Shown here: piece by piece, positions 2,825-50,083 of the stretch
Layout of the letters: each line of letters begins with the position of its first letter
Position numbering within the stretch: the stretch's first letter is position 1
DNA from: Chloroflexus aurantiacus J-10-fl
GTDB taxonomy: Bacteria; Chloroflexota; Chloroflexia; Chloroflexales; Chloroflexaceae
Direction: 5' to 3'
NCBI RefSeq assembly: GCF_000018865.1
Contig: NC_010175.1
Span: 1,364,001-1,428,000 of the forward strand
Length of the DNA: 64,000 nucleotides
Position numbers and translations under genes: made by a program
Notes under the pieces: generated by a model
Database searches by the model: none
Seen by the model: only the letters and a program-made list of their open reading frames with translations
What the model was told of the DNA's origin: nothing

Positions 2825-3275
2825 CTATGCATTACCCACAACGCTATAGGTGCCATCTGCGCTTCTCATCAGGGACTATCGCCGCCTGTGTTCCCCCGGG
2901 CATCACTGCTCGGTACCAGCCCTGTCGTGATGCCGAAGCTATCCGGTTCATCCGCCCGTCGCCACAGGGATCACCGACGACACCCGGATGGACACCGTGG
3001 TGGCACACGGAGGTATCTTGCGGGATAGGTCAGGACTGGTGCTTCCCAGACAGGCGCTCATCCCCGCCGTGGGCACTGCTGCACCCTGATCGGGCATCAC
3101 CGGGTGCCAGCCAGCGACGATTGTCGTGCCGTGGATGACGGCAGCATCCCGTACCGGCAGTGGTAGGGGCGCACGGCCGTGCGCCCCTACCGGACACGGC
3201 CAAGGCGATCCCTGGTGGCCCGTGATACACCGATGCATCGTATCGACTACTAGGTGACTTGTGGGTAATGCATAG
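2825..3275. mobile_element. MITE-like non-autonomous element, copy 1 (451 bp)
   Basis: The ends are perfect 17-bp terminal inverted repeats: CTATGCATTACCCACAA at 2825-2841 and its reverse complement at 3259-3275. The element is flanked by a 9-bp direct repeat CCTACGGAG at 2816-2824 and 3276-3284, the signature of transposition. No transposase frame is present, so it would have to be mobilised in trans. A second copy of the same length and content lies at 44074-44527. The 9- and 11-bp duplications of the two copies fit an IS4-like transposase, but the family is not proven. Confidence 0.85.
3163..3190. repeat. Modular palindrome, core type B, inside the MITE
   Basis: Perfect 28-bp palindrome: outer arms GTAGGGGC / GCCCCTAC with inner core GCACGGCCGTGC. 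Confidence 0.9.
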
Positions 3276-3359
3276 CCTACGGAGCGAGAGGTGAGAAAGC
3301 CGGGCATGCAGTACTCACACACCATCTTACATCTACCCCTATTTCCTCTTCCCTCTCTC

Positions 3360-3458
3360 CTATTTCCTATCTCCTCCCTCCTATTTCCTATCTCCTCCCT
3401 CCTATTTCCTATCTCCTCTCTCCTATTTCCTATCTCCTCTCTCCTATTTCCTATCTCC
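3360..3458. repeat. 21-bp pyrimidine-rich tandem repeat (about 4.7 units)
   Basis: Units start at 3360, 3381, 3402, 3423 and 3444 with consensus CTATTTCCTATCTCCTCYCT plus C. Almost all bases of the plus strand are C or T. The array lies just past the 3' end of the glycosyltransferase gene and touches its last codons. Confidence 0.9.
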
Positions 3459-4497
3459 TATTTCCCCCCAACAACGCCCCAATCACCCGATCCCACGTAA
3501 TACCATCCACCAGCGGCCTGCCGGCACGACCGAGGCGTGCGGCAAGGGCAACATCACCGGTCAGTTGATCAAGATGACCGGCAATCGCTGCCGGGTCGGG
3601 CGGTGAAACGAGGCCATTTTCCCCGTGGCGGACGAACTCCAACACGCCACCCGCATCGTCGGTAGTGATGACGGGGCGAGCGGCACCGAATGCCTCGACC
3701 GTCGCAAAGCCGTAATCTTCATCAACCGGTGCGTAGTAGACGGCTCTGGCGTGGGCGTAGAGGTCAATCAACTCGTCGTCCGGCACAAAACCGCGAAAAC
3801 TGACCCGATCACCCAGCCCGTAGTCGGCAGCCAGACGCTGCAACCGTTCGCGATCAGGGCCGGTGCCGGCGATGATTGCCCGGACTGGCGAGGCAGTCTG
3901 TGCCAGCGCCGCCAGGAGCAGGTCGATCCGCTTGGCCCGATCAAGCCGGGCCGGAGAGAGGATGTAGTCGCCGTAGTCACCTGCCCACAATTTGCCAGCG
4001 TAGCGACTGGGCGGGTAGAGTGGTGTGCTGCTCAGGCCGTTGAAGCGTTCGAGACGCCGACTGACATTGTGCGAGATCGTGAAACGGGCCTGGCATTCGT
4101 TGAGGGCCCGGCTATCAATCCGAAAGATCTGCTCGCGGACTGCCCGGTGTGAAGGCGAACCGTCAAAATCGCTCAACGGCGTTCCATACCAGTCGTAAGC
4201 CTGCCGGTGCTGATGTACCAGCCAGAGCACTTTGCGGGCGTGGCGGATCAGGTACGACGGGAATTTGGTTGCAATCACCAGATCAACCGGCTCGCCGTTG
4301 ACGTGACTGATGTCGAGCAGGCGCCAGGCCAGGGCACTGTCGATGATGCGTTCTACCGGATGCCACTGAAACGGCAGCGCGACCACATCAACAGTATGGC
4401 CGCGGCGCTGCAACTCATCGCGCAGGCTTTCAACCAGATATTCAGCGCCACCACGAACGAACGGAACTTGCGTGGCACAGATCAGAATACGACTCAT
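3451..4497 (-). CDS. Glycosyltransferase family 4 (GT-B fold)
   Basis: 348 residues, normal length for GT4 retaining transferases. The N-terminal half opens with ILICATQVPFVRGGAEYLVE, where RGGAE matches the GGAE acceptor-side motif of this clan. The C-terminal donor domain has DYILSPARLDRAKRIDLLL and the EDYGFATVEA element (the E-x7-E motif). No signal peptide; a cytoplasmic or membrane-face enzyme that moves an activated sugar to a lipid, glycan or protein; the substrate cannot be read. The start codon overlaps the stop of the upstream coiled-coil gene by ATGA, so it is the third gene of a translationally coupled operon with a MoxR ATPase. Confidence 0.85.
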   Translation of the reverse strand: MSRILICATQVPFVRGGAEYLVESLRDELQRRGHTVDVVALPFQWHPVERIIDSALAWRLLDISHVNGEPVDLVIATKFPSYLIRHARKVLWLVHQHRQAYDWYGTPLSDFDGSPSHRAVREQIFRIDSRALNECQARFTISHNVSRRLERFNGLSSTPLYPPSRYAGKLWAGDYGDYILSPARLDRAKRIDLLLAALAQTASPVRAIIAGTGPDRERLQRLAADYGLGDRVSFRGFVPDDELIDLYAHARAVYYAPVDEDYGFATVEAFGAARPVITTDDAGGVLEFVRHGENGLVSPPDPAAIAGHLDQLTGDVALAARLGRAGRPLVDGITWDRVIGALLGGNRR

Positions 4498-22698: not shown

Positions 22699-23054
22699 GG
22701 CTCGCTACTCCTCTAGCACAACAACGAAGGGTTCGTGGCCGGTGTGGGGTTGCGTTGCGTCCGAACTCGACCGAGAGGAGGCTCAGAGGGGATCGCTAGC
22801 GCGTACCAGATCCGTACCATTCTTGAATATTGATTATACCAAATTTTGACTATTGTGAGAAGTTAGATTTTTGCATCTTCACTATCCTGGTGTCACATAT
22901 TTGAAGTGTGGATGCAGTGCTTCCGCAACAACCGCATGACGGGGAACCGGGTGTGAAGACCATCTGGCGTGGGCTGCGCCGCCTGCACGACATCGTCGCT
23001 CGCCGGTAACTCCTACGCACAACTCCACCTGCTGCTGGTAACACATGATGTGAT

Positions 23055-23071
23055 GTATGGGTAATGCATAG
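23055..23071. mobile_element. Solo end of the MITE family (decayed remnant)
   Basis: TATGGGTAATGCATAGCC matches the right terminal repeat of the elements at 2825 and 44074; the preceding CTGCTGGTAACACATG also resembles that end. No partner end was found. Confidence 0.55.
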
Positions 23072-23235: not shown

Positions 23236-23263
23236 TTTGGGGCACGGCATGCCGTGCCCCTAC
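23236..23263. repeat. Modular palindrome, core type D
   Basis: Core CACGGCATGCCGTG with right arm CCCCTAC and a decayed left arm TTTGGGGC. The following GGGCGTCCAGCG also follows the half-palindrome at 44691. Confidence 0.75.
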
Positions 23264-23379
23264 GGGCGTCCAGCGATACATCATTCAGTGCAGCACCAGA
23301 GGTATTGCTGAATAGTAGCGGTACGGTATGCGCGGGACAACCCTGGTCGAGGCGATCTATACGCAGAAGCGCCGCATGC

Positions 23380-26671: not shown

Positions 26672-26910
26672 GCATTGCCAGGGCTGGCAGCGCGACCCTC
26701 CGCCAGAACTGGCAGTGCGATCCTCCGCCAGGACTGGAAGCACGCGCCTCCGCCAGGACTGGAAGCACGCGCCTCCGCCAGGACTGGAAGCACGCGCCTC
26801 CGCCAGGACTGGAAGCACGCGCCTCCGCCAGAACTGGCAGTGCGACCCTCCGCCAGGACTGGAAGCGCGCGCCTCCGCCAGGACTGGGAGCGCGCGCCTC
26901 CGGCGCGCCG
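26672..26910. repeat. 25-bp tandem minisatellite (about nine units)
   Basis: Units begin with CCTCCGCCA at 26697, 26722, 26747, 26772, 26797, 26822, 26847, 26872 and a partial one at 26897. Consensus CCTCCGCCAGGACTGGAAGC followed by ACGCG; variant units have GAACTGGCAGTGCGA. There are no unique spacers, so it is not CRISPR, and 25 bp is not a codon multiple. Confidence 0.92.
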
Positions 26911-30290: not shown

Positions 30291-30408
30291 AGGGTGTTCT
30301 ATCAAATCTGGCAAGATACAGGTATGCATGTGCTCCAATCTGCCCATCATCCAACGCTCACTTGCACAATATGTATTTGTCAGAAGCAGATCACCGGTGC
30401 TAACAGCA

Positions 30409-30764
30409 TATCCGCGCACATCCGCCAGACCCGCGTCCATCCGTGTGCTGCGGATGATACACGGATACTCGCGGATGCAGCGGATATGCGCGGATCACCC
30501 TCCTGCCGTACCATAGCGTGAGGCACCCAGCAAATCCGCGCACATCCGCCAGACCCGCGTCCATCCGTGTGCTGCGGATGATCCCCACGAATACTCACGG
30601 ATGCATCGGATATACGCTGATCACCCTCCTGCTGGTACCATTGCGTGAGGCACCCAACCCATCCGCGTGCACCCGCCAAACCCGCGTTCATCCGTGTTCT
30701 GAGGATGACCACCACGGATGCTCACGGATGCAGCGGATATGCGCGGATCACCCTCCTGCCAGGG
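30409..30764. repeat. Three tandem units of about 125 bp
   Basis: Units start (TCCGCG) at 30411, 30535 and 30662. Each runs TCCGCGCACATCCGCCAGAC, CATCCGTGT, CGGATGCAGCGGATA and GATCACCCTCCTGC. Within a unit CGGAT and ATCCG words recur in both directions, so RNA or single strands could fold extensively. Confidence 0.85.
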
Positions 30765-40008: not shown

Positions 40009-43000
40009 ATGCACGACTTTGTTCATCTGCATGTCCACTCTGAATACAGCCTGCTCGATGGCTATGCCACAACGAAAGGCATTACCCAGCGTGCTGCCGA
40101 ATTGGGGATGGACAGTATCGCCCTGACCGATCACGGGGTGATGTACGGCGCGATGGAGTTCTACGAGGCGGCGAAAAAGGCCGGTATCCGCCCGATTATC
40201 GGTGTCGAAGCCTACATGGCCCCCGGCTCACTGAGCGACCCGATGACAAAAGGGGCAAAAAACTATTTTCATTTGCTGTTGCTGGCCCAAAATGAGGTGG
40301 GATACCGTAATCTGGTGAAACTCACCACGCGCGCCCATCTTGACGGGATGGGAAAGGGTGTGTTTGCCCGCCCCCGTATCGACCGGCAATTGCTGGAAGC
40401 GCATCACGAAGGCCTGATCGTTACCTCGGCCTGTCTGGCTGGCGAGGTGTTGCACTATCTGAAAGCGGGAGACCGTCGTGCAGCCGTTGAAACCGCCGCA
40501 TATTACCGTGACCTGCTCGGCCCCGACCGTTACTATCTTGAGTTGCAACTGCATGACAATACCCCTGAACTCGAGCCGCTGAACGATGAGTTAGTGAAGA
40601 TCGGGCGCGAACTGGGTATTCCACTGGTAGCCACCAGTGACGCGCATTTCGTCCGTCCAGAAGATAAAGCAACCCAGCACAAGATTATGGCGATGGGGAT
40701 GAATATGACCTACGCCGAGTTTTGTGCTCGTGAATACGCGATGGACGAGAGCTACCATATCTTGTCGGGCGAGCAGATGTGGGAGCGGTTTAAACGCTAC
40801 GGTACTGAACCGCTGGAAAACACTCGTCGCATCGCCGATATGTGCCGGTTGAAGCTGGAGTTTGGACGGGTTCAGTTGCCGGTCTTTGAGTTACCGCCGG
40901 GCCACGATGCCGCCTCATATCTACGCCTCGTGTGTGAAGAGGGTTTGATGCGCCGGTTCAATGGTCAGCCACCTGCTGAGTATATGAATCGGTTGGCGTA
41001 TGAACTGGATGTGATTAATCAAACCGGCTTCCCTGATTACATGTTGATCGTATGGGATTACGTGAAATTTGCCCGTTCACGCGGTATCCCCTGTCTGCCG
41101 CGTGGATCTGCCGGTGCATCGCTCGTGCTCTACGCCCTCGGCATCACCGATGTCGATCCGGTCAAGAATAAGCTGCTCTTCGAGCGTTTCCTCTCGCCCG
41201 AACGTCTGGAAATGCCCGATATTGACACCGATTTCGCCGACTCGCGCCGCCAGGAGATTCTTGACTATATCGCCGATAAGTACGGGCGGGAGAATGTTGC
41301 GCAGATTATTACCTACGGTACGCTCGGGGCCAAAGCGGCCATTCGCGATATGGGCCGTGTGCTCGGTCTCGATCCCGGTGAGGTAGATCGGGTCGCCAAA
41401 CTGATTCCAGCGTTACCGGTTGGCACCACCATCGCCCAGGCCCTTGAGCGCGTCCCAGAGTTGAAGCAGATCTACGAAACCCAGCCCCACCTGCGCGAAC
41501 TGATCGATGAGGCACAGAAGGTTGAAGGCCGGATGCGGTCAGTTGGCACGCATGCCTGTGGCGTGGTGGTCAGTCGAACACCGCTGGCCGAGCTGGTGCC
41601 CCTGCAACGCACGACCAAAGACGAGAATGCGTTGATGGCTGCGTTTGAAGGGCCGACCCTGGCCAAGATGGGTCTGCTGAAGATGGATATTCTCGGTCTA
41701 ACCAACCTTTCCGTGGTGGCCGAGGCCCTCAAGTATATCGAGCAGACGACTGGCCGGCGGATGTGGCTTGATGAAATTCCACTTGATGATCCAAAGGTTT
41801 TTGAGGCATTAGGACGAGGCGAAACGAAGAATGTCTTCCAACTAGAATCGGCGGGAATGACGCGCTACCTGATGCAATTGAAGCCAACCCGCGTTGAAGA
41901 CCTCTACGCCATGGTGGCGCTCTATCGCCCCGGCCCACTTGAGCAGATTCCAGTCTATATTCAGAACAAAAATAATCCATCCCAGATCCGCTATCTCCAC
42001 CCCGTGCTCGAACCGATCCTGTCCGACACCTACGGTGTGATCGTCTATCAGGAGCAGATTATGCAACTGTTGCAGACGGTCGCCGATTATACGCTCGGTC
42101 AGGCCTATATCGTTATCAAGGCGATCAGCAAGAAGAATCGCGAACTGATGGCCGAAAATGAGGCTATTTTCAAGCAAGGGTGCCAGCGCAAAGGCATTAG
42201 TAAGGAGATTGCCGATCAGCTCTGGGAGTTGATCTTGCCGTTCGCCGGCTATTCGTTTAACCGACCGCACGCCACGCTCTACGGTTTGCTCAGTTATCAG
42301 ACCGCCTGGCTAAAGGTGAATTATCCGGTCGAGTATATGACCGCTGTGCTGACCGGTGCGGGTGGCGTAATTGAAGATGTGACGAAGGCGGCACTCGAAG
42401 CACGGCGTCTGGGTGTGGCAGTACTGCCCCCTGATGTCAACCGCTCGCACAAGGGCTTCACTATCGAACCACTTGCCCAACCGTTGCCGCCGGGCGTAAC
42501 CCACCAACGCGGTATTCGCTTTGGCTTGATGGCAATCAAGAATGTCGGCGAAGGGCCAGTAGAAGCGATCATTGCTGCACGCGAGGCAGGTGGCCCCTTC
42601 CAATCGCTGGAAGACCTCTGTGCGCGCGTTGATCGCCACGCGCTGAACAAGCGTACCCTGGAAAGCCTGATCAAAGCCGGTGCACTCGACTCGCTCCCTG
42701 GCACGCGCCGCCAGAAGCTGGCAATCCTCGATCAGGCCGTCAGCGCCGGGATCGAAGCCCAGAAGGCGCGTGAAATCGGCCAGAGTAGCCTGTTTGATAT
42801 CTTTGGTGAAGCAACCACCGCCAATCCGGTGGTGGCCCGTATTCCGTTGCCGCTGATCGTCGAGAGTCCTGCCGATCAGAAAGAGGTGCTGCTCTGGGAA
42901 AAGGAGCTGCTCGGATTGAATATTTCCGATGATCCCATCGCTAAGGCCCTCGAAGGTGTCGATCTCAGCGGTGCTACCGAACTTGGTTCGATTGATGCTG

Positions 43001-43755
43001 AACATATCGGAGAGACGCTCACCTTCGTGGGAGTGCTGAGTGGGGTGCGTCGGATTGCGACAAAGAAGGGCGAGACGATGCTGGTCGCCAATCTTGAAGA
43101 TTTGACCGGCAGCATCGAGATAGTGGTCTTTCCAAAGGTGCTGGCGAAGTACGCCGATCTATTACAAAATGACGCTGTAGTGCGGATTACGGCAAAGGTT
43201 GATAACCGTCGTGATACACCCCAACTGGTAGTCGATCACGTGGAAACGCCCGCGTCAGTAGATCAGACAACAAGCGCCCAACCGCTTGAAATGGATCTGG
43301 AAGGGGTAAGCGATGATCTGAACGGCGAAGGCGGTGTGGAATTGCCGGCGCCACCGGTATCGCCAGCACCAGCACCAACTCCTACCCCGGCTCCGGCATC
43401 TCCGCCGCCGGTCAGACCGCCGGTTGTGCGCACCCGCCAGCCGGTCAAGCTCGCCAGTAATGGGAATGGTCATGGCGGTCACCATGCACCAGAACCGCCA
43501 CGGGTTGACGGGCCGCCGGCGCGTAATCTACGCATCTACCTGCCGCGTAGCCACGATTTTGATGCCGATATTGCATTGATGCAGCATGTCCACACGATTC
43601 TGAGCAGCAGTCATGGTAATGACCAGGTCACACTGTATCTGCCAAATGGGGTGGGCATGGTCGTCTTACAGTCGCAGCATACCATTACCCTCTCCGATGC
43701 CCTGGTTGCCGAACTGAAGCAGGTGCTTGGCCCTGACCGGGTGCTGGCGATGTAA
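40009..43755 (+). CDS. dnaE: DNA polymerase III alpha subunit
   Basis: 1248 residues from the ATG at 40009, giving the family start MHDFVHLHVHSEYSLLDG; the upstream TTG extension is not needed. PHP domain first (His6, His8, His10), then the C-family polymerase with catalytic Asp404 and Asp406 in MPDIDTDFAD, helix-hairpin-helix region near 830, and an OB domain near 990-1070 (LTFVGVLSGVRRIATKKGE). An unusual Pro/Ala-rich linker (about 1105-1150) separates a terminal 80-residue domain. Replicative polymerase; no intein. It appears to be monocistronic with its own promoter. Confidence 0.96.
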   Translation: MHDFVHLHVHSEYSLLDGYATTKGITQRAAELGMDSIALTDHGVMYGAMEFYEAAKKAGIRPIIGVEAYMAPGSLSDPMTKGAKNYFHLLLLAQNEVGYRNLVKLTTRAHLDGMGKGVFARPRIDRQLLEAHHEGLIVTSACLAGEVLHYLKAGDRRAAVETAAYYRDLLGPDRYYLELQLHDNTPELEPLNDELVKIGRELGIPLVATSDAHFVRPEDKATQHKIMAMGMNMTYAEFCAREYAMDESYHILSGEQMWERFKRYGTEPLENTRRIADMCRLKLEFGRVQLPVFELPPGHDAASYLRLVCEEGLMRRFNGQPPAEYMNRLAYELDVINQTGFPDYMLIVWDYVKFARSRGIPCLPRGSAGASLVLYALGITDVDPVKNKLLFERFLSPERLEMPDIDTDFADSRRQEILDYIADKYGRENVAQIITYGTLGAKAAIRDMGRVLGLDPGEVDRVAKLIPALPVGTTIAQALERVPELKQIYETQPHLRELIDEAQKVEGRMRSVGTHACGVVVSRTPLAELVPLQRTTKDENALMAAFEGPTLAKMGLLKMDILGLTNLSVVAEALKYIEQTTGRRMWLDEIPLDDPKVFEALGRGETKNVFQLESAGMTRYLMQLKPTRVEDLYAMVALYRPGPLEQIPVYIQNKNNPSQIRYLHPVLEPILSDTYGVIVYQEQIMQLLQTVADYTLGQAYIVIKAISKKNRELMAENEAIFKQGCQRKGISKEIADQLWELILPFAGYSFNRPHATLYGLLSYQTAWLKVNYPVEYMTAVLTGAGGVIEDVTKAALEARRLGVAVLPPDVNRSHKGFTIEPLAQPLPPGVTHQRGIRFGLMAIKNVGEGPVEAIIAAREAGGPFQSLEDLCARVDRHALNKRTLESLIKAGALDSLPGTRRQKLAILDQAVSAGIEAQKAREIGQSSLFDIFGEATTANPVVARIPLPLIVESPADQKEVLLWEKELLGLNISDDPIAKALEGVDLSGATELGSIDAEHIGETLTFVGVLSGVRRIATKKGETMLVANLEDLTGSIEIVVFPKVLAKYADLLQNDAVVRITAKVDNRRDTPQLVVDHVETPASVDQTTSAQPLEMDLEGVSDDLNGEGGVELPAPPVSPAPAPTPTPAPASPPPVRPPVVRTRQPVKLASNGNGHGGHHAPEPPRVDGPPARNLRIYLPRSHDFDADIALMQHVHTILSSSHGNDQVTLYLPNGVGMVVLQSQHTITLSDALVAELKQVLGPDRVLAM

Positions 43756-43812
43756 GCACGGTGAGGGTAAGCATTCGCGGTTGGGTGGTTGACGCGGAAA
43801 TTAGGAAATTGA

Positions 43813-43849
43813 GTAGGGAGCACGGTATACGGCATGCCGTGCCCCCTAC
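43813..43849. repeat. Modular palindrome, core type D with central duplication
   Basis: GTAGGGAGCACGG, then TAT, then ACGGCATGCCGTGC and CCCCTAC. It starts 58 bp after the dnaE stop and may act as its terminator. Confidence 0.6.
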
Positions 43850-44073
43850 TTTGTACTGTCACATCAGGTTGCGCTGTCGTATCTACATCCCGCTCCCAGC
43901 GGGCGGACTGGAGCAGGGGCGTGTCACATAGCACCGCTGGGAGCTGTGAACACGTGACATACCATACTAGAACTTAAAAGCTGTGCTGTCGATCTCCCAG
44001 ACTGTCGCACAGACGCATGAACGCTTGCCAATCACCACGACAGCCTACCCTGCGCCCAACCCGTTGGTATGGG

Positions 44074-44527
44074 CTTTTCATTACCCATAATTCTGTAGTC
44101 ACCCGCTGCATTCTTCATCAGGGACTATCCCAGCGTGCACTCCTCCGGACATCACCGCTCGGCACCAGCCCTGTCGTGATGCCGAAGCTATTCGGTTTAT
44201 CCGCCCGTCGCCGCAGGGATCACCAACGATAACCAGATGGACACCGTGGTGACGGACGGGGGTGTCTTGCCAGGTGGGGTAGGACTGGGTGCTTCCCAGA
44301 CGGACGCTCATCCCCGCGGTGGGCGCTGCTGCACCCTGATCGGGCATCACCGGGTGCCCGCCGGCGACCATTGGCGTCCTGGGGATGGCGTCAGCATCCC
44401 GCACCGGCATTGGCAGGGGCGCACGGCCGTGCGCCCCTACCGGGCACGGTCAGGGCGATCCCTGCTAGCCCGTGACACGACCGATGCACCATACTGGCTA
44501 CCTGGCAACATATGGGTAATTGCATAG
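44074..44527. mobile_element. MITE-like element, copy 2 (454 bp)
   Basis: Alignable with copy 1 along its length (shared AGGGACTATC, CCAGCCCTGTCGTGATGCCG, ATCCCCGC, CTGCACCCTGATCGGGCATC). Ends CTTTTCATTACCCATAA and (right, reversed) CTATGCAATTACCCATA. Flanked by an 11-bp direct repeat GTTGGTATGGG at 44063-44073 and 44528-44538. No transposase. Confidence 0.85.
44413..44440. repeat. Modular palindrome, core type B, inside MITE copy 2
   Basis: Outer arms GCAGGGGC / GCCCCTAC with the perfect core GCACGGCCGTGC; one outer mismatch compared with 3163-3190. Confidence 0.85.
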
Positions 44528-44618
44528 GTTGGTATGGGGGAGAGCAGCTTCGTTCGTGTCATCATAGACTGGATTGATTGCCTTGCCTGCGCATCATGCG
44601 CGTCTCGCGTCGTTTGGA

Positions 44619-44646
44619 GTAGGGGCACGGCATGCCGTGCCCCTAC
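44619..44646. repeat. Modular palindrome, core type D
   Basis: Perfect 28-bp palindrome: GTAGGGGC / GCCCCTAC around ACGGCATGCCGT. Confidence 0.9.
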
Positions 44647-44849
44647 GACTCCCGGCGTACCAGGTAAGTAAGACGCAGGTGTCGCCCCTACGGGCGTCCA
44701 GCGGTGCATCGTTCAGGTGCAGTATCGGGGTCATCGTTGACTGATGTGTCACGACCAGATTTGATATCATCCAGTTCTGAAGCGGATTCTGGTCACAACA
44801 ATTTGAGAGTGCTACAATACGTAAAATAACCGCTAGCGGAGAGATTGCT

Positions 44850-46919
44850 ATGACAACACAACGTGTTCGTGGTTGCTGCCCGCATGATTGCCCCGATACC
44901 TGTGCCACCATAACGGAAGTGCGTGATGGACGGGCAGTCGCGTTTTATGCCGATCCTGAACATCCGATCACCCAGGGCTGGCTGTGTGCCAAAGTCCGTC
45001 CGTACCTCGAACGAGTGTACAGTCCTGATCGGCTGCTCTACCCACTCCGTCGGGTAGGACCAAAAGGCAGCGGACGCTGGGAACGGATAAGCTGGGACGA
45101 AGCGATCACTACCATCGCAGAGCGCTGGCAGGCAATTATCGCCGAATACGGTGCTGCTGCGATCCTGCCCTATTCGTACAGCGGCACGCTGGGTTTGCTG
45201 CAAACGGCGATTGTTGATGCCCGCTTGTGGAACCGGATGGGAGCCAGCGGTCTGGATCGAACGATCTGCTGTGCTGCTGCCCACGCTGCTGTCTATGCCA
45301 CGCTCGGTGCCCGCCGCAGTCCTGACTACGACGACCTGCGGCACAGCCGGCTCATAATCCTTTGGGGACATAATCCGGCCAGTGCCGGCCCTCACGCAAT
45401 GCCGTTTATCCGTCAGGCACAGCGTGCCGGTGCCTATGTGGTGGTGATCGATCCACGACGGACGGCTACCGCTCGCTCTGCCGATCTCCATCTGGCGATC
45501 AGGCCGGCAACCGATGGGGCGCTGGCCTTGGGCATGATGAATGTCATCTTCGCTGAAAACCTGCACGATGAGGCATGGTTAGAAGCGCATACGGTTGGCT
45601 GGCGTGAATTGCGCGCGCGGGCTGCCGAATATGATCCCGAACGGGTAGCAACCATTACCGGACTGCCGGTATCAACCATCATTGAACTGGCCCGTCGCTA
45701 TGCAACCACCAAACCGGCTATCATTAAAACAGCCGACGGTATTCAACGCCATCAGAATGGTGGTCAGACCTTCCGGGCACTCCTTTGCCTGCCGGCGGTT
45801 GTGGGACAGTACGGTGTGCGTGGCGGTGGCCTGGCCTATTCCACCGGCGGTTATGCAACGTGGGATGCGGAAGCCGTTGGTCATGCCTCTGAATGCCCAC
45901 CAGTACCGCGGACTGTCAATATGAACCGTCTTGGCGCGGCTCTCACCGGCGAAGTAACCGATCCGCCGATCATGTCCCTCTTTGTCTACTGCGCTAACCC
46001 TCTCGCTTCATCACCCAATGCCGGCCTCATCGAACAGGGGTTGCGGCGTGAAGACCTCTTTACCGTCGTCCACGAACTCTTTATGACCGATACGGCCCGC
46101 TACGCCGATATTGTCTTGCCGGCAACCAGTCAACTCGAACACCTCGATCTGCACCGTGCCTATGGCCATCGTTATCTCACGCTTAACCAACCGGCAATTG
46201 CCCCCTTGGGGGAAGCGAAGAGCAATTGGGACGTGACCCGCTTGCTGGCGCAGGCGATGGGCTATAGCGAACCGTGGCTGCACGAGAGTGCGGAAGAGGC
46301 GATCCGTGGTGTCCTCGATGCCTCGCGGGCACGCAATCCATTTCTGGCCGGCATCACCTTTGAACGTCTGCAACAAGAGGGAACCATCCGGCTCACACTG
46401 TCACCAGAGAACGAAGTGCCGTTTGCTGATGGTCACTTCCCAACCCCATCAGGCAAAGTTGAATTGTGGAGTGCGACCATGGCGGCTCAGGGGCTTGATC
46501 CGCTTCCCCATTATGAACCACCGGCTGAGTATGTCGCACATCCGCCGGAGGAGGGATGGCTAACCCTCATCTCAGCCGCTGCTCACCATTTTGTCTCGTC
46601 AAGTATGGCCAACCAGCCCAGTTTGCGGGCAAAAGAGGGAGAACCGACTATCGAGATTAATCCGGTCGATGCTGCCGCGCGCAACATTCGTGATGGTGAC
46701 GTTGTCGTTGTCAGTAATCAACGAGGGCAGTGCCATCTGCGTGCAGTTGTGAGTACCAACGTACCGCCCGGTGTTGTCTCTGCGGTCAAGGGCCACTGGC
46801 CTTCACTCTCGCCCGATGGGCGAAATGTCAACTGGACAACTCCCGATGCACTGGCCGATCTGGGTGGACAGAGCACATTTCACAGTAATCGGGTACAGGT
46901 CTGGCCATCACGCATCTGA
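44850..46919 (+). CDS. Molybdopterin-dependent oxidoreductase, DMSO reductase family
   Basis: 689 residues. An N-terminal [4Fe-4S] site is formed by Cys10, Cys14, Cys18 and Cys46 (CCPHDCPDTC and GWLCAK). Molybdopterin domains follow, with LIILWGHNPASAGPH and VVVIDPRRTATARSADLHLAIRP; the C-terminal cap domain begins near EGWLTLISAAAHHFVSSSM. The likely Mo-ligand region reads RTICCAAAH, i.e. Cys rather than selenocysteine. No twin-arginine signal, so cytoplasmic. Substrate unknown; related proteins include formate dehydrogenase-like and thiosulfate/polysulfide reductase-like enzymes. A mocA-like gene lies 6.5 kb downstream. Confidence 0.9.
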   Translation: MTTQRVRGCCPHDCPDTCATITEVRDGRAVAFYADPEHPITQGWLCAKVRPYLERVYSPDRLLYPLRRVGPKGSGRWERISWDEAITTIAERWQAIIAEYGAAAILPYSYSGTLGLLQTAIVDARLWNRMGASGLDRTICCAAAHAAVYATLGARRSPDYDDLRHSRLIILWGHNPASAGPHAMPFIRQAQRAGAYVVVIDPRRTATARSADLHLAIRPATDGALALGMMNVIFAENLHDEAWLEAHTVGWRELRARAAEYDPERVATITGLPVSTIIELARRYATTKPAIIKTADGIQRHQNGGQTFRALLCLPAVVGQYGVRGGGLAYSTGGYATWDAEAVGHASECPPVPRTVNMNRLGAALTGEVTDPPIMSLFVYCANPLASSPNAGLIEQGLRREDLFTVVHELFMTDTARYADIVLPATSQLEHLDLHRAYGHRYLTLNQPAIAPLGEAKSNWDVTRLLAQAMGYSEPWLHESAEEAIRGVLDASRARNPFLAGITFERLQQEGTIRLTLSPENEVPFADGHFPTPSGKVELWSATMAAQGLDPLPHYEPPAEYVAHPPEEGWLTLISAAAHHFVSSSMANQPSLRAKEGEPTIEINPVDAAARNIRDGDVVVVSNQRGQCHLRAVVSTNVPPGVVSAVKGHWPSLSPDGRNVNWTTPDALADLGGQSTFHSNRVQVWPSRI

Positions 46920-46969
46920 CAGCATCGTGACATTCCCTTCACAGCACAACCATGAAAGGAGTGGGTGTC

Positions 46970-47647
46970 GTGAAGCGGCTCGATTGGGGAAAAACCGGTC
47001 AGTCGATGACTGAAATTACCATTCTGTTGGCACTGGTGGCAGCAGTAGCGATTTCCGGCTTAATGCTCACCGGTGAAGGCACCCGTGATGCGCTCTGTCG
47101 GGCAGCAAGTGCGTTCGGGAGCACCTGTGGCGATCTGTTTCGCGACGATTTTTCCAATCTCAATAACTGGACTATTCAGAACGGACGCTGGCAAATTCGT
47201 GAGGGACGCCTTTGCATCGATGGGCCAGGGCGGATCTATCGCTCATTTGATCGCAGTGACTACGTGATCGATGTCAGCCTGGCCCGTCTGACCAGAGGGA
47301 ATGGCTATGGCCTCTTCTTCCGCGACTCGGGTGGGCCAAAATTCAATGGCTACTCGTTCCAGTATGATCCGGGCTACGGGCGAGGGGCATTCATCATTCG
47401 CAAGTGGATCAATGGTAATGAGCTGGCAGTGCCGATTGCCCGCGTAGAGGCACCCGCCGGCTACGATTGGTATGGCTCAGATCGCACAGTGCGCCTGGAG
47501 GTACGCGGGAATACATTTGTTGCCTCTGTCGATGGTCAACCGGTTGTTCAGGCGCGTGATAGCAGTTTTAATCAAGGCGGTATCGGCTTCCGCAGTTGGG
47601 ATGCATCGAGTGCCTGCTTCGATGATGTGAGTGTGCGCAGGCCGTGA
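46970..47647 (+). CDS. Pilin-like N-terminus fused to a concanavalin/LamG-like domain
   Basis: 225 residues from GTG at 46970, with AAAGGAG 8 bp upstream; the ATG at 46952 would overlap that site. Residues 9-35 read GQSMTEITILLALVAAVA, like the class III/Flp or TadE-type prepilin segment (G-Q-S, Glu at +5/6, then a hydrophobic helix). Residues about 62-225 form a beta-rich domain (FRDDFSNLNNWTIQNGRWQI, YGLFFRDSGGP, GGIGFRSWDASSACFDDVSV) typical of DUF1080/LamG-like sugar-binding folds. An envelope-displayed adhesin is inferred. Followed 30 bp later by a membrane-anchored protein. Confidence 0.75.
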   Translation: MKRLDWGKTGQSMTEITILLALVAAVAISGLMLTGEGTRDALCRAASAFGSTCGDLFRDDFSNLNNWTIQNGRWQIREGRLCIDGPGRIYRSFDRSDYVIDVSLARLTRGNGYGLFFRDSGGPKFNGYSFQYDPGYGRGAFIIRKWINGNELAVPIARVEAPAGYDWYGSDRTVRLEVRGNTFVASVDGQPVVQARDSSFNQGGIGFRSWDASSACFDDVSVRRP

Positions 47648-47677
47648 GGACGTGGCAATGTTCTCGAAGGTGGCATT

Positions 47678-48130
47678 ATGACCGACGAACAGCGATCATC
47701 ACAACCGCCACAGGGGCAATTTGATCCCGATTACTATGTGCAATGGCAACCACCGGTTATTCCACCAGGCCAGGGACGACGAGTGGTGCGGATCGCGATT
47801 GTCTTCTTGAGCGGTGTGCTGGTACTTATCGCTTTGATTGCACTCTGGCGGAGTAATCTGATAGCTCTGCCCGGTGGTCGGGGTGATATTGTGGGGCGAG
47901 TAGCAGCACCGGCCGAGGGAGCAGTGGTCTTTACCGGGACAGATTTCACTGAAATTCCGGTTGCAGCGGATGGCAGTTTCATCGTGCGTGGTGTGCCTTC
48001 AGGACGGCAAATACTCTACGTTGCGTTTGCCGGCACGGCCTGGGAAGTTGCGGTTGACGTGCCCAATCAGGGAACGGTTGATGTGGGTGTAATTACGGTT
48101 CAGCCAACTGCCGAACCGGTGCAGCGGTAA
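47678..48130 (+). CDS. Membrane-anchored protein with carboxypeptidase-regulatory-like beta-sandwich
   Basis: 150 residues. A cytoplasmic Gln/Pro-rich N-terminus (1-33), one TM helix (about 36-60, VVRIAIVFLSGVLVLIALIAL), then an extracytoplasmic domain starting GDIVGRVAAPAEGAVVFTGTDF and VAADGSFIVRGVPSGRQILYVAF, the pattern of CarboxypepD_reg-like Ig folds. Probably works with the preceding pilin-like/LamG protein at the cell surface. Confidence 0.7.
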   Translation: MTDEQRSSQPPQGQFDPDYYVQWQPPVIPPGQGRRVVRIAIVFLSGVLVLIALIALWRSNLIALPGGRGDIVGRVAAPAEGAVVFTGTDFTEIPVAADGSFIVRGVPSGRQILYVAFAGTAWEVAVDVPNQGTVDVGVITVQPTAEPVQR

Positions 48131-48228
48131 ACAGGTGGTGCGGTCGCTAATCGGCACTGATAACTATAACTATCAACCTCATAGAGCGAACGCACTACTG
48201 ATCACGATTGTCGTTTCGTTGGACGCCG

Positions 48229-48313
48229 TTATCCCCAATCTATCCACGACACCCTGTCGTAATGTGGATAAGTGAACGAAAATTGTGGATAACTTTTGCA
48301 TAGCGGTGGATTA
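48229..48313. promoter_or_regulatory. Cluster of DnaA-box-like sites with 21-bp spacing
   Basis: TTATCCCCA (48229-48237) and CTATCCACG (48240-48248) in one orientation; TGTGGATAA (48263-48271), TGTGGATAA (48284-48292) and GGTGGATTA (48305-48313) in the other. Two match the consensus TTATCCACA exactly. The last three are spaced by exactly 21 bp, two helical turns. No dnaA or dnaN gene is nearby. Confidence 0.75.
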
Positions 48314-48435
48314 CAGATTGATAACACACTATCGTTCTGATCCATCTCGATATCAAATCTGGCAGTGTCTGTAGCACGTGGTTCGGCGGTCAGCAGCATG
48401 GTTTCCATACTCCAATGGAGCGTGCATGATGTTCC

Positions 48436-48640
48436 ACTAGAACGTATCTCTTAAAGCTGTGCTGTCGTGCTACCAGCCTGTCGCACAGGCTCATAAACGC
48501 TTGCCAATCACCACGACAGCCTACCCTGCTCCTGGCCCGTTGGCAACGCGCAGCTCCGGTCGTGCCATCACGCGCTGGATGGGTTGCCTTGCCCGCTTGT
48601 CATGCGCATGTCGCGGCGCTTGGCGTGCGGCAGCATGGCT
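48436..48640. repeat. Repeat R2, copy b (uninterrupted)
   Basis: Aligns with both halves of copy a around the MITE at 44074-44527; the junction here reads CCCGTTGGCAACG with no insertion, giving the empty-site state. Confidence 0.8.
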
Positions 48641-48841
48641 GCCACACCAGTCGTGCTCACGATCCGGCACGGGTCACGCCGTTGCCCCTGCCGGTCACGA
48701 GGATGCTGTGACTGCTCATCACGATCAATGAATGAGATAACTTCTAGCTTCGTTCTATTCAGTTCCTTGCCAACAATGTATTCTATGCTATGCTTTGAGT
48801 GAGCAGTATCACCACACGTATAGCCATGGTCGCAAAACCTT

Positions 48842-50083
48842 ATGACCGTCATCCTGTTTGAAGATGAACTCTGGCGCCATTTTGCTACGCTTGTTCAGGC
48901 CCGTCCGGTCTTTGAACTTCGCTGTGGGGCATTTTCAACCCGTGAACGGGTTGCCGCCATTCTTGACCAACCGGCTTACGGTCTCTGTCGTGCCCACCTG
49001 ATGCCCCACTTTGGCCCTGCCGGTGGACTGGCCGAATTGCTGGCCCGAAGTGATCCGGTCATCTTCGTGAATGGTCGGGCCCTCAATCTGGAGTGGTTGC
49101 CGGCACTTGTCTGTGAGCCGATCAACACTGCCTACATTGCCAGTGAAACGCTCCTCGGTGCTCGCGTATCGCCGGCTCTGGCCAGTGCAATCATCTATTA
49201 TCTTCGTGAGCAGCAGGCTGAAGCCGCACGTGACGAGTTGCTGCGCTTTGCCCGGATGCGCGAGTTGCAACTCACTGCACCACTGCTGAGCTATCCCTGG
49301 GATCTCATCACTCAGGCCGGCGAACAGCTCATTCGTGATGAACCATTGCTGGCCCGTCGGTTACCGCTGTTGACAACCGATGCACCTCACGTCATCGCCC
49401 ATGGCAAGCGGGTCTACGTCGATCCGACGGCGCAACTGGCCGGGCCAATCGTGTTTGATAGTCGCGACGGGCCGGTCTTCGTCGAGGCAGCGCAGATCGA
49501 GCCATTCAGTTACATTCAGGGGCCGGCCTACATTGGCCCAGGCACCCTGATTGCCAGTGCTCGTATCCGTGCCGAAACCTGTATCGGGCCGGTGTGTCGG
49601 GTTGGCGGTGAGGTGGAGGCGTCGATCATTCACGGCTATTCCAACAAACATCACGATGGCTTTCTCGGTCATAGCTGGCTAGGGGAATGGGTGAATATCG
49701 GGGCAATGACGACCAATTCCGATTTGAAAAACAACTATGGTTCGGTGCGCGTGCTCCTCGAAGGCATCGGCCAGATCGATACCGGTATTCTAAAGCTGGG
49801 CTGCTTTCTGGCCGATCACGTGAAGCTGGGGATCGGTCTCCATCTGACCGGTGGAACGATGATTGGTACCGGATCGAATGTCTTCGGTATGCATAGTGCG
49901 CCAAAAAACGTTCCCCATTTCACCTGGGGCGGCGAGGTCTTTCGCGAGTACCGCATTGATACTATGATCAGCGTAGCTCGTATCGTAATGGCACGGCGGA
50001 AACGCGAGCTGACGCCCAGTTACGAGCAGGTGCTGCGCAAGGCTTTTGAGATAACGCAACCAAGTCGTGATGGTCTGGGATAG
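48842..50083 (+). CDS. GlmU-like sugar-nucleotide acetyltransferase with left-handed beta-helix
   Basis: 413 residues. The N-terminal third (ILFEDELWRHFATLVQARPVFELRCG) matches the TIGR03991-type leader; it lacks the LAAGxGTRM nucleotidyltransferase loop, so pyrophosphorylase activity is doubtful. Residues about 215-375 are hexapeptide repeats (YIGPGTLIASARIRAETCIG, WLGEWVNIGAMTTNSDLKNN, VKLGIGLHLTGGTMIGTGS) forming a left-handed beta-helix with the acetyl-CoA/sugar site. Probably acetylates a sugar phosphate for envelope glycans. Stop is 3 bp before selA. Confidence 0.85.
   Translation: MTVILFEDELWRHFATLVQARPVFELRCGAFSTRERVAAILDQPAYGLCRAHLMPHFGPAGGLAELLARSDPVIFVNGRALNLEWLPALVCEPINTAYIASETLLGARVSPALASAIIYYLREQQAEAARDELLRFARMRELQLTAPLLSYPWDLITQAGEQLIRDEPLLARRLPLLTTDAPHVIAHGKRVYVDPTAQLAGPIVFDSRDGPVFVEAAQIEPFSYIQGPAYIGPGTLIASARIRAETCIGPVCRVGGEVEASIIHGYSNKHHDGFLGHSWLGEWVNIGAMTTNSDLKNNYGSVRVLLEGIGQIDTGILKLGCFLADHVKLGIGLHLTGGTMIGTGSNVFGMHSAPKNVPHFTWGGEVFREYRIDTMISVARIVMARRKRELTPSYEQVLRKAFEITQPSRDGLG

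Follow-up and report, generated by a model that had tools for sequence, protein, structure and literature searches.

Results

A 454-bp element inside an R2 repeat

The window analysed here is a stretch of 64,000 nucleotides (positions 1364001-1428000) of the single-contig, 5,258,541-base genome of Chloroflexus aurantiacus J-10-fl. Between a gene that ends at 43755 and another that starts at 44850 lies an intergenic element of 454 bp, which on direct reading starts with CTTTTCATTACCC and ends with GGGTAATTGCATAG (Table 1). From their sequences, we take the upstream gene to be dnaE and the downstream gene to encode a molybdopterin oxidoreductase. The ends of the element are imperfect inverted repeats of 19-20 bp, and perfect 11-bp direct copies of GTTGGTATGGG bracket it. 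The sequence-only reading had proposed that the element splits a copy of a repeat, R2, and carries an 11-bp duplication; the coordinates and the perfect repeats, read directly, confirm this.

The longest ATG-initiated frame within the element has 103 aa. The element is predicted to encode no transposase, and its interior has no homology to the interior of the insertion sequence (IS) that has the same ends. Like other MITEs, it is short, with inverted ends, a duplication and dispersed copies that share their ends with an IS; that IS (genome 766523-768006) carries a damaged transposase. Rfam at gathering thresholds gave no match within window positions 43000-49500. Another copy of the same subfamily, near the start of the window, has the 9-bp word CCTACGGAG duplicated on either side (2816-2824 and 3276-3284).

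A short palindrome of the type GTAGGGGCACGGCATGCCGTGCCCCTAC, resembling REP-type sequences, occurs at 44619-44647 and at 23239-23264, and similar words are found within the 454-bp element and in congener genomes, chiefly G001. Self-comparison of the window also revealed local direct repeats with periods of 21, 25 and more bp at 1692-2822, 3338-3465, 26677-26902 and 30404-30760.

Table 1. Positions in the window of the element, its host repeat and related features.
Feature	Window positions	Strand	Remarks
R2a, left part; copy of the R2 MITE with IS5-type ends TAGAACYTATTTCA	43967-44073	+	
Left 11-bp target duplication copy, GTTGGTATGGG	44063-44073	.	direct reading
Probable IS50-type MITE, 454 bp, non-autonomous	44074-44527	+	terminal inverted repeats, target duplication, further genomic matches
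Left terminal inverted repeat, CTTTTCATTACCCATAATT	44074-44092	+	IS50-subgroup end signature at 7/7 positions
Right terminal inverted repeat	44508-44527	-	one T more than consensus
Right 11-bp target duplication copy, GTTGGTATGGG	44528-44538	.	direct reading
R2a, right part	44528-44635	+	R2 similarity stops at ~44635, short of the R2 right end
R2b, uninterrupted R2 MITE	48437-48747	+	311 bp; right end degenerate
MITE copy of the same subfamily	2825-3275	+	451 bp; 83% identical to the copy at 44074-44527
Relic, 3' end of IS50-type parent	22932-23071	+	transposase residues about 423-460 (last ~35)
Terminal repeat (right end) of the relic	23053-23071		

The host repeat

The left and right ends of R2, CTAGAACTTATTTCA and TGAAATAGGTTCTAG, are inverted repeats. 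Among 20 R2 loci (L031-L050), examined together with their flanks, a loose scan located both ends in 12, at a spacing of 283-385 bp; the clearest copies measure 327-356 bp. With at most one mismatch, the end pattern TAGAACYTATTTCA is found at 85+79 sites in the genome (1+0 for the reversed-pattern control), and at 0 or 1 per genome in seven other Chloroflexus genomes (controls 1-4). Ends of this type also stand ~857 bp apart around DDE_Tnp_1 transposases at six loci (L169, L175-L178 and L182). The 258-aa protein of the 857-bp element, classified at one of the six loci, matches the NCBIfam family transpos_IS5_3 (E=4.9e-33). R2 and this IS5-family element have ~18 bp in common at each end and little else, and TA, by eye, adjoins the ends of several R2-type copies.

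R2 resembles IS5-family derived MITEs in having the ~18-bp ends of an IS5-family element. It differs from them in that its interior is unrelated to the IS, and about 250 bp of that interior are common to the largest IS50-type MITE subfamily. R2 is a mobile MITE family with inverted ends of its own rather than a neutral repeat, so that at this locus a member of one MITE family has entered a member of a second.

Near R2b, about 100 non-coding bp (48227-48326), upstream of a gene that starts at 48842, match all seven congeners at 77-83% identity (over 70 bp only in G001). This stretch holds two TGTGGATAA words, which resemble DnaA boxes.

Occupied and uninterrupted R2 copies

R2a (43977-44067) and R2b (48453-48543) are only 87.9% identical across their best 91 bp, so the pair alone cannot fix the history of the site. 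Once the element and one copy of the duplication are taken out, the remainder of R2a is colinear with R2b and with 19 further copies of R2; all 20 are uninterrupted and have neither element bases nor a duplicated target word at the site. At the insertion point the joined R2a reads GTTGGTA-TGGGG-GAGAGC where other copies read, for instance, GTTGGCA-GAGAGC; these 5 additional bp are absent from all 20 copies, and the last four bases of GTTGGTATGGG lie within them. When the 85-bp joined site was used to search the whole genome, the five matches were the two halves of R2a and three weaker R2 copies.

Because of these 5 extra bp, R2b is an inexact empty version of the site: it is a diverged paralog of R2a that approximates the state before insertion. 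The sequence-only reading had described R2b as continuous at 48436-48640: the continuity holds, and the repeat extends to ~48747. It had also treated the two repeats as an internal before/after comparison, which stands as one of occupied and unoccupied R2 and gives way as to exactness, R2b being paralogous and different by 5 bp. Leftover element ends in R2b, named in that reading as the outcome that would overturn it, were sought in the alignment, and none was found.

The comparison would run the other way if the element had formerly been in R2b and a deletion, precise or imprecise, had removed it. Cut-and-paste elements do leave their donor sites, and the divergence of the pair leaves room for such a history. 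We consider it extremely improbable, given that R2b and the 19 other copies read straight through and that the 85-bp search found no other copy having the R2a site.

No orthologous empty site was found for 42700-49500 among eight Chloroflexus genomes (this one included). The two genes that flank the insertion are at least 130 kb apart in two single-contig congeners and on different contigs in five drafts, so these genomes offer no orthologous intergenic site for comparison. For another insertion with an 11-bp duplication (genome 2267545-2267993), an empty site was likewise not recovered in the seven congeners, which near this locus conserve only the upstream 400-450 bp, plus short matches the size of a palindrome. 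When the flanks were joined at 30 sites, 17 had an open frame exceeding 150 aa and 13 had no such frame, which is uninformative in GC-rich DNA.

Copy number, end consensus and MITE groups

Searching the C. aurantiacus genome with the 454-bp element as DNA query gave at least 34 matches; the counts are lower bounds, since scores were computed for 40 of the 54 candidates. Counting the query, at least 16 matches reach 120 bp, and at least eight are near full length; two of the 15 further matches of at least 120 bp are halves of one split copy. The expansion looks old, because the longer matches are only 72-85% identical to the element. In the seven congeners the longest match has 50 bp and runs across a palindrome.

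The end pattern CTATGCATTACCCAYA, with up to two mismatches, occurs at 161+169 = 330 sites in the genome (3+4 = 7 for the reversed-pattern control), and at one or two sites in each of the seven congeners (controls 0-3). With up to three mismatches, 253 ends (134 left, 119 right) were collected from 410,401 fetched bases that had been chosen mainly around exact ends; the genome total at this threshold is 390, and the control 41. These ends give the 19-bp consensus CTATGCATTACCCAYA-N-S-T; the search pattern imposed positions 1-16 but left free position 19, where 85% of the ends have T. The flanks are GC-rich, and CCAGCGG/CCGCTGG lies within 20 bp of 49 of 234 distinct ends, compared with 1.2% of the fetched background and 0.6% of window positions.

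Eighty-nine adjacent end pairs and the copy at 44074-44527 make up 90 elements, which fall into four groups of 74, 9, 5 and 2. The 44074-44527 copy belongs to the group of nine, and the group of two consists of transposase-bearing elements. The interior of the IS is common to no MITE group among these 90 elements; beyond the ends, a few matches of 19-21 bp, at chance level, are all that MITE interiors have in common with it.

At four loci, tandem arrays were seen in which every unit begins or ends with an IS50-type end: ten left ends at ~374 bp (L157, genome 3832234-3836063, the whole flanked by a 9-bp duplication, CCCAGCGGG), five left ends at 384 bp (L142, 3001755-3003291), seven right ends at 239 bp (L123, 2112614-2114048) and three left ends at 677 bp (L166, 4823275-4824629). 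The Porphyromonas gingivalis MITE with a minisatellite (PMC4596501) is similarly a MITE that carries an internal repeat expansion. The arrays here differ in that they repeat the element end plus further sequence.

Length of the target duplication

Perfect duplications at the 89 adjacent pairs measured 4 bp in three cases, 7 bp in three, 8 bp in four, 9 bp in 12 and 11 bp in two, and 65 pairs had none; the corresponding means with shuffled flanks were 1.05, 0.46, 0.60, 0.41, 0.09 and 83.9. A wider set allowed inward-facing ends up to 4 kb apart and comprised 202 pairs (201 from the scan, plus the 44074-44527 copy added by hand; nested and array pairs share ends). In this set duplications of 7, 8, 9, 10 and 11 bp numbered 3, 6, 16, 3 and 5, against shuffled means of 1.17, 2.15, 1.98, 0.40 and 0.44, and the observed counts were reached in 107, 13, 0, 7 and 0 of 1000 shuffles, respectively. 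The survey bears out the proposal, made from the 9- and 11-bp duplications in the window, that the length varies, since 9, 10 and 11 bp all exceed the shuffled expectation. The same IS50-type end thus appears to be used with staggers of 9, 10 and 11 bp across many copies. The 164 of 202 pairs with no perfect duplication of at least 4 bp count against this reading; they may reflect decay as well as recombination among the copies.

At genome positions 3311334-3312832, a member of the 44074-44527 subfamily has been interrupted in its turn by a 1039-bp element that carries the same ends and whose borders, GGTGGCGGAC and GGTGGTGGAC, form a 10-bp duplication with one mismatch. This split member provides an independent internal comparison of occupied and unoccupied sequence.

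An 11-bp duplication could conceivably be a 9-bp one whose element ends were misplaced, or the GC-rich flanks might agree by chance. Because each length aligns the flanks in its own way, coincidental neighbouring bases can extend a 9-bp duplication to 11 bp only where the ends have been misplaced. Among the five 11-bp words, CCCCCGCTGGG and CCCCCAGCGGG are GC-rich and of a kind that recurs in the flanks, and these two could be coincidence; for an 11-bp case in another genome (L193, below), a 9-bp duplication next to ends longer by one base is an alternative reading. The remaining three words (GTTGGTATGGG, GTGAAGGAGCC and CCTACTACCAC) are not of the GC-rich kind, and 11-bp duplications recur in two of 26 pairs from other genomes. 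As to the ends, C stands first in 98% of the 234 distinct ends, although these were picked by a C-initial pattern, and moving the boundary of the 44074-44527 copy one base outward pairs G with G, which are not complementary. Misplaced ends or chance therefore seem to us a highly improbable account of the 11-bp class.

A candidate transposase source

An IS with the ends of these MITEs (copy A; L190, genome 766523-768006) is 1484 bp long, has both 16-bp ends without mismatch and is flanked by the 9-bp duplication GTTCCCCCC. Its transposase frame, with one in-frame TAG read as X, falls into the IS4 family of NCBIfam (E=1.8e-123), contains the Pfam domains Tnp_DNA_bind and Dimer_Tnp_Tn5 (the Tn5 DNA-binding and dimerisation domains), and matches the Tn5 transposase among PDB entries (E=8.6e-48). 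For the IS50 subgroup of the IS4 family, Table 1 of PMC2266710 gives an end signature CW------Y---CA-A--W-, a size of 1350-1550 bp and duplications of 8-9 bp. Copy A agrees in size, end signature and its 9-bp direct repeat. The signature is present at 7/7 positions at both of its ends; seven of nine ends checked score 7/7, and the other two 6/7.

A second copy (copy B; L188/L212, genome 21936-23100) is shortened and decayed, with further stops. A single uninterrupted transposase frame was found in neither, copies A and B having the same TAG, which is read as decay. The two are 72% identical over the aligned C-terminal part, and yet have the TAG in common. In seven relatives the corresponding codon specifies Tyr in five (L193, L195, L197, L198 and L273), Asp in one (L194) and Ser in one (L196). 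By eye, the Y-(2)-R-(3)-E-(6)-K motif reads Y-R-E-N in copy A, and Y-R-E-K in the decayed copy B and in the intact transposase of L273. No intact source transposase was located in the C. aurantiacus genome, and a relic in the window preserves the 3' end of an IS50-type parent (Table 1).

A transposase other than the IS50-type one might move the element, the ends being convergent. The MITE and the IS have no internal homology, and the genome contains 25 DDE_Tnp_1 matches, in a survey that covered the DDE_Tnp_1 family only. Only two of these 25 loci, both IS50-type, are bracketed by the MITE ends, whereas six others have R2-type ends. The ends of the IS50-type element are identical to those of the MITEs over 16 bp, and sequence of an IS50-type transposase stands beside the same end at four of 79 loci listed from other genomes. 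We regard a different enzyme as very improbable. At one DDE_Tnp_1 locus (L167), a complete IS50-type end pair lies beside, not around, the transposase match. Five further loci (L185, L186, L187, L189 and L191) were considered as IS50-type sources and rejected, as each has another transposase by eye and is without IS50-type ends.

The family might still be active, with the TAG read through or an intact copy complementing. The TAG persists in both transposase copies despite a protein difference of 28%, so that TAG-bearing copies may have moved, and relatives have Tyr, Asp or Ser at this codon. We think this unlikely, because copy A lacks the K of YREK, copy B is shortened and has further stops, and the longer matches to the 454-bp element are as diverged as stated above.

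The same ends in other genomes

Across 158 genomes of the class, matches to the IS50-type transposase were found in 20 (C. aurantiacus included), and in none of the seven congeners. The exact 20-bp end CTATGCATTACCCAYAASTC is present in at least 79 stretches from other genomes, in 21 record sets as judged by accession prefix. They include Anaerolineae, Roseiflexus, Zipacnadia, Bacillota, Singulisphaera and two Thermoplasmatota MAGs, although MAG labels may be contaminated. The intact L273, one of these loci and from an Anaerolineae MAG, is an IS of 1474 bp with a stop-free transposase of 456 aa that is 60% identical to the local one; its flanks have only 6 bp perfectly in common. An automatic test for both ends and a duplication, applied to L193-L196, was passed by L193 alone, a more distant relative of 1748 bp with the 11-bp duplication CACGTTGTGGG (alternatively 9 bp, with ends one base longer). 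The ends of L196 and L197 are recognisable, and neither has a perfect duplication by eye.

At 26 end pairs from other genomes, duplications of 9 bp were found in four, 10 bp in two, 11 bp in two and 6 bp in one, and the remaining 17 had none; the shuffled means for 9, 10 and 11 bp, with unshuffled draws included, were 0.17, 0.08 and 0.09. Sixteen small MITEs (159-262 bp) from these loci belong to several groups by sequence; their similarity to the local elements is confined to stretches of 23-33 bp at the ends.

A core common to two MITE families

Of the 90 IS50-type elements, 55 have an interior that matches R2 at its positions ~98-350. All 55 are in the group of 74, and none is in the group of nine, in the group of five or among the two ISs. 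The match reaches at least 150 bp in 50 of the 55 elements, at 74-85% identity. In an alignment of two R2 copies with eight IS50-type elements, the common core is bounded on both sides by unrelated ends, and therefore a core of ~250 bp is carried by MITEs with the ends of two transposase families.

Discussion

We conclude that the 454-bp element is very probably an IS50-type MITE that was pasted in trans by a Tn5-type transposase into R2, leaving an 11-bp duplication. The ends, the duplication, the uninterrupted paralogs, the copy number, the matching IS with its transposase here and elsewhere, and the 9-11-bp spectrum are observed directly. In the mechanism that we envisage, a Tn5-type DDE transposase supplied in trans would have bound the ~19-bp ends, excised the element and pasted it into an R2 copy. 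The cuts would have been staggered by 11 bp, and gap filling would have produced the direct duplication. The cut-and-paste chemistry and the action in trans are our inference. The link between the MITE and this transposase lies in the ends and the duplication length, because the interiors share nothing with the IS. Further findings weigh against this explanation: 11 bp exceeds the tabulated 8-9 bp, most end pairs have no perfect duplication, R2a has its 5 extra bp, and neither an intact local source nor an orthologous empty site was found.

The mechanism is ordinary for the class, in that a non-autonomous element is moved by an IS50-type transposase. The system here is like the IS50 (Tn5) subgroup in transposase class and domains, size, end signature and a duplication of about one helix turn. 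It differs in that the local transposase copies are damaged and the targets are GC-rich with CCAGCGG/CCGCTGG. As short elements with only the terminal repeats in common with an IS4-family element, these MITEs resemble IS4-family MITEs and mobile insertion cassettes. MIC231, the mobile insertion cassette of IS231, belongs to the IS231 subgroup, and the elements here have IS50-subgroup ends. The duplications here reach 10-11 bp, compared with the 8-9 bp tabulated for the IS50 subgroup (Table 1, PMC2266710), and a passage in PMC8557372 describes Tn5 transposition as giving 9-bp duplications.

Since both located transposase copies are damaged, mobility has presumably largely stopped in this genome, and its IS50-type MITEs are probably now without an intact source. 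The intact transposase of L273 is an enzyme with which the question of the stagger could be tested.

We found no earlier description of these elements in the open-licence literature. In the C. aurantiacus genome paper (PMC3150298), 'insertion sequence' occurs 0 times and 'transpos-' once, in a sequencing method; passages of PMC5771137 name Chloroflexus only in a reference. As far as this literature search shows, the assignment, the sizes of both families, the 9-11-bp spectrum across genomes and the common core are new.

From the perspective of MITE evolution, a broader scenario may be considered, which we hold to be possible but rather doubtful. One IS50-type system, with a near-invariant 20-bp end found in records of Chloroflexota, Planctomycetota, Zipacnadia, Bacillota and Thermoplasmatota, may have repeatedly made unrelated DNA into MITEs, with a stagger that, unlike that of Tn5, is inherently loose at 9-11 bp. 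In C. aurantiacus it may also have exchanged cargo with the IS5-type system, which would place the ~250-bp core under two unrelated transposases. The MITEs of this species would then be modular cassettes in which the ends evolve apart from the interiors, each family inserting into or absorbing the other.

Two MITE families have expanded strongly in C. aurantiacus and are lacking in seven other genomes of the genus. The core shared between MITEs with different ends provides a concrete case that bears on how MITE interiors are acquired.
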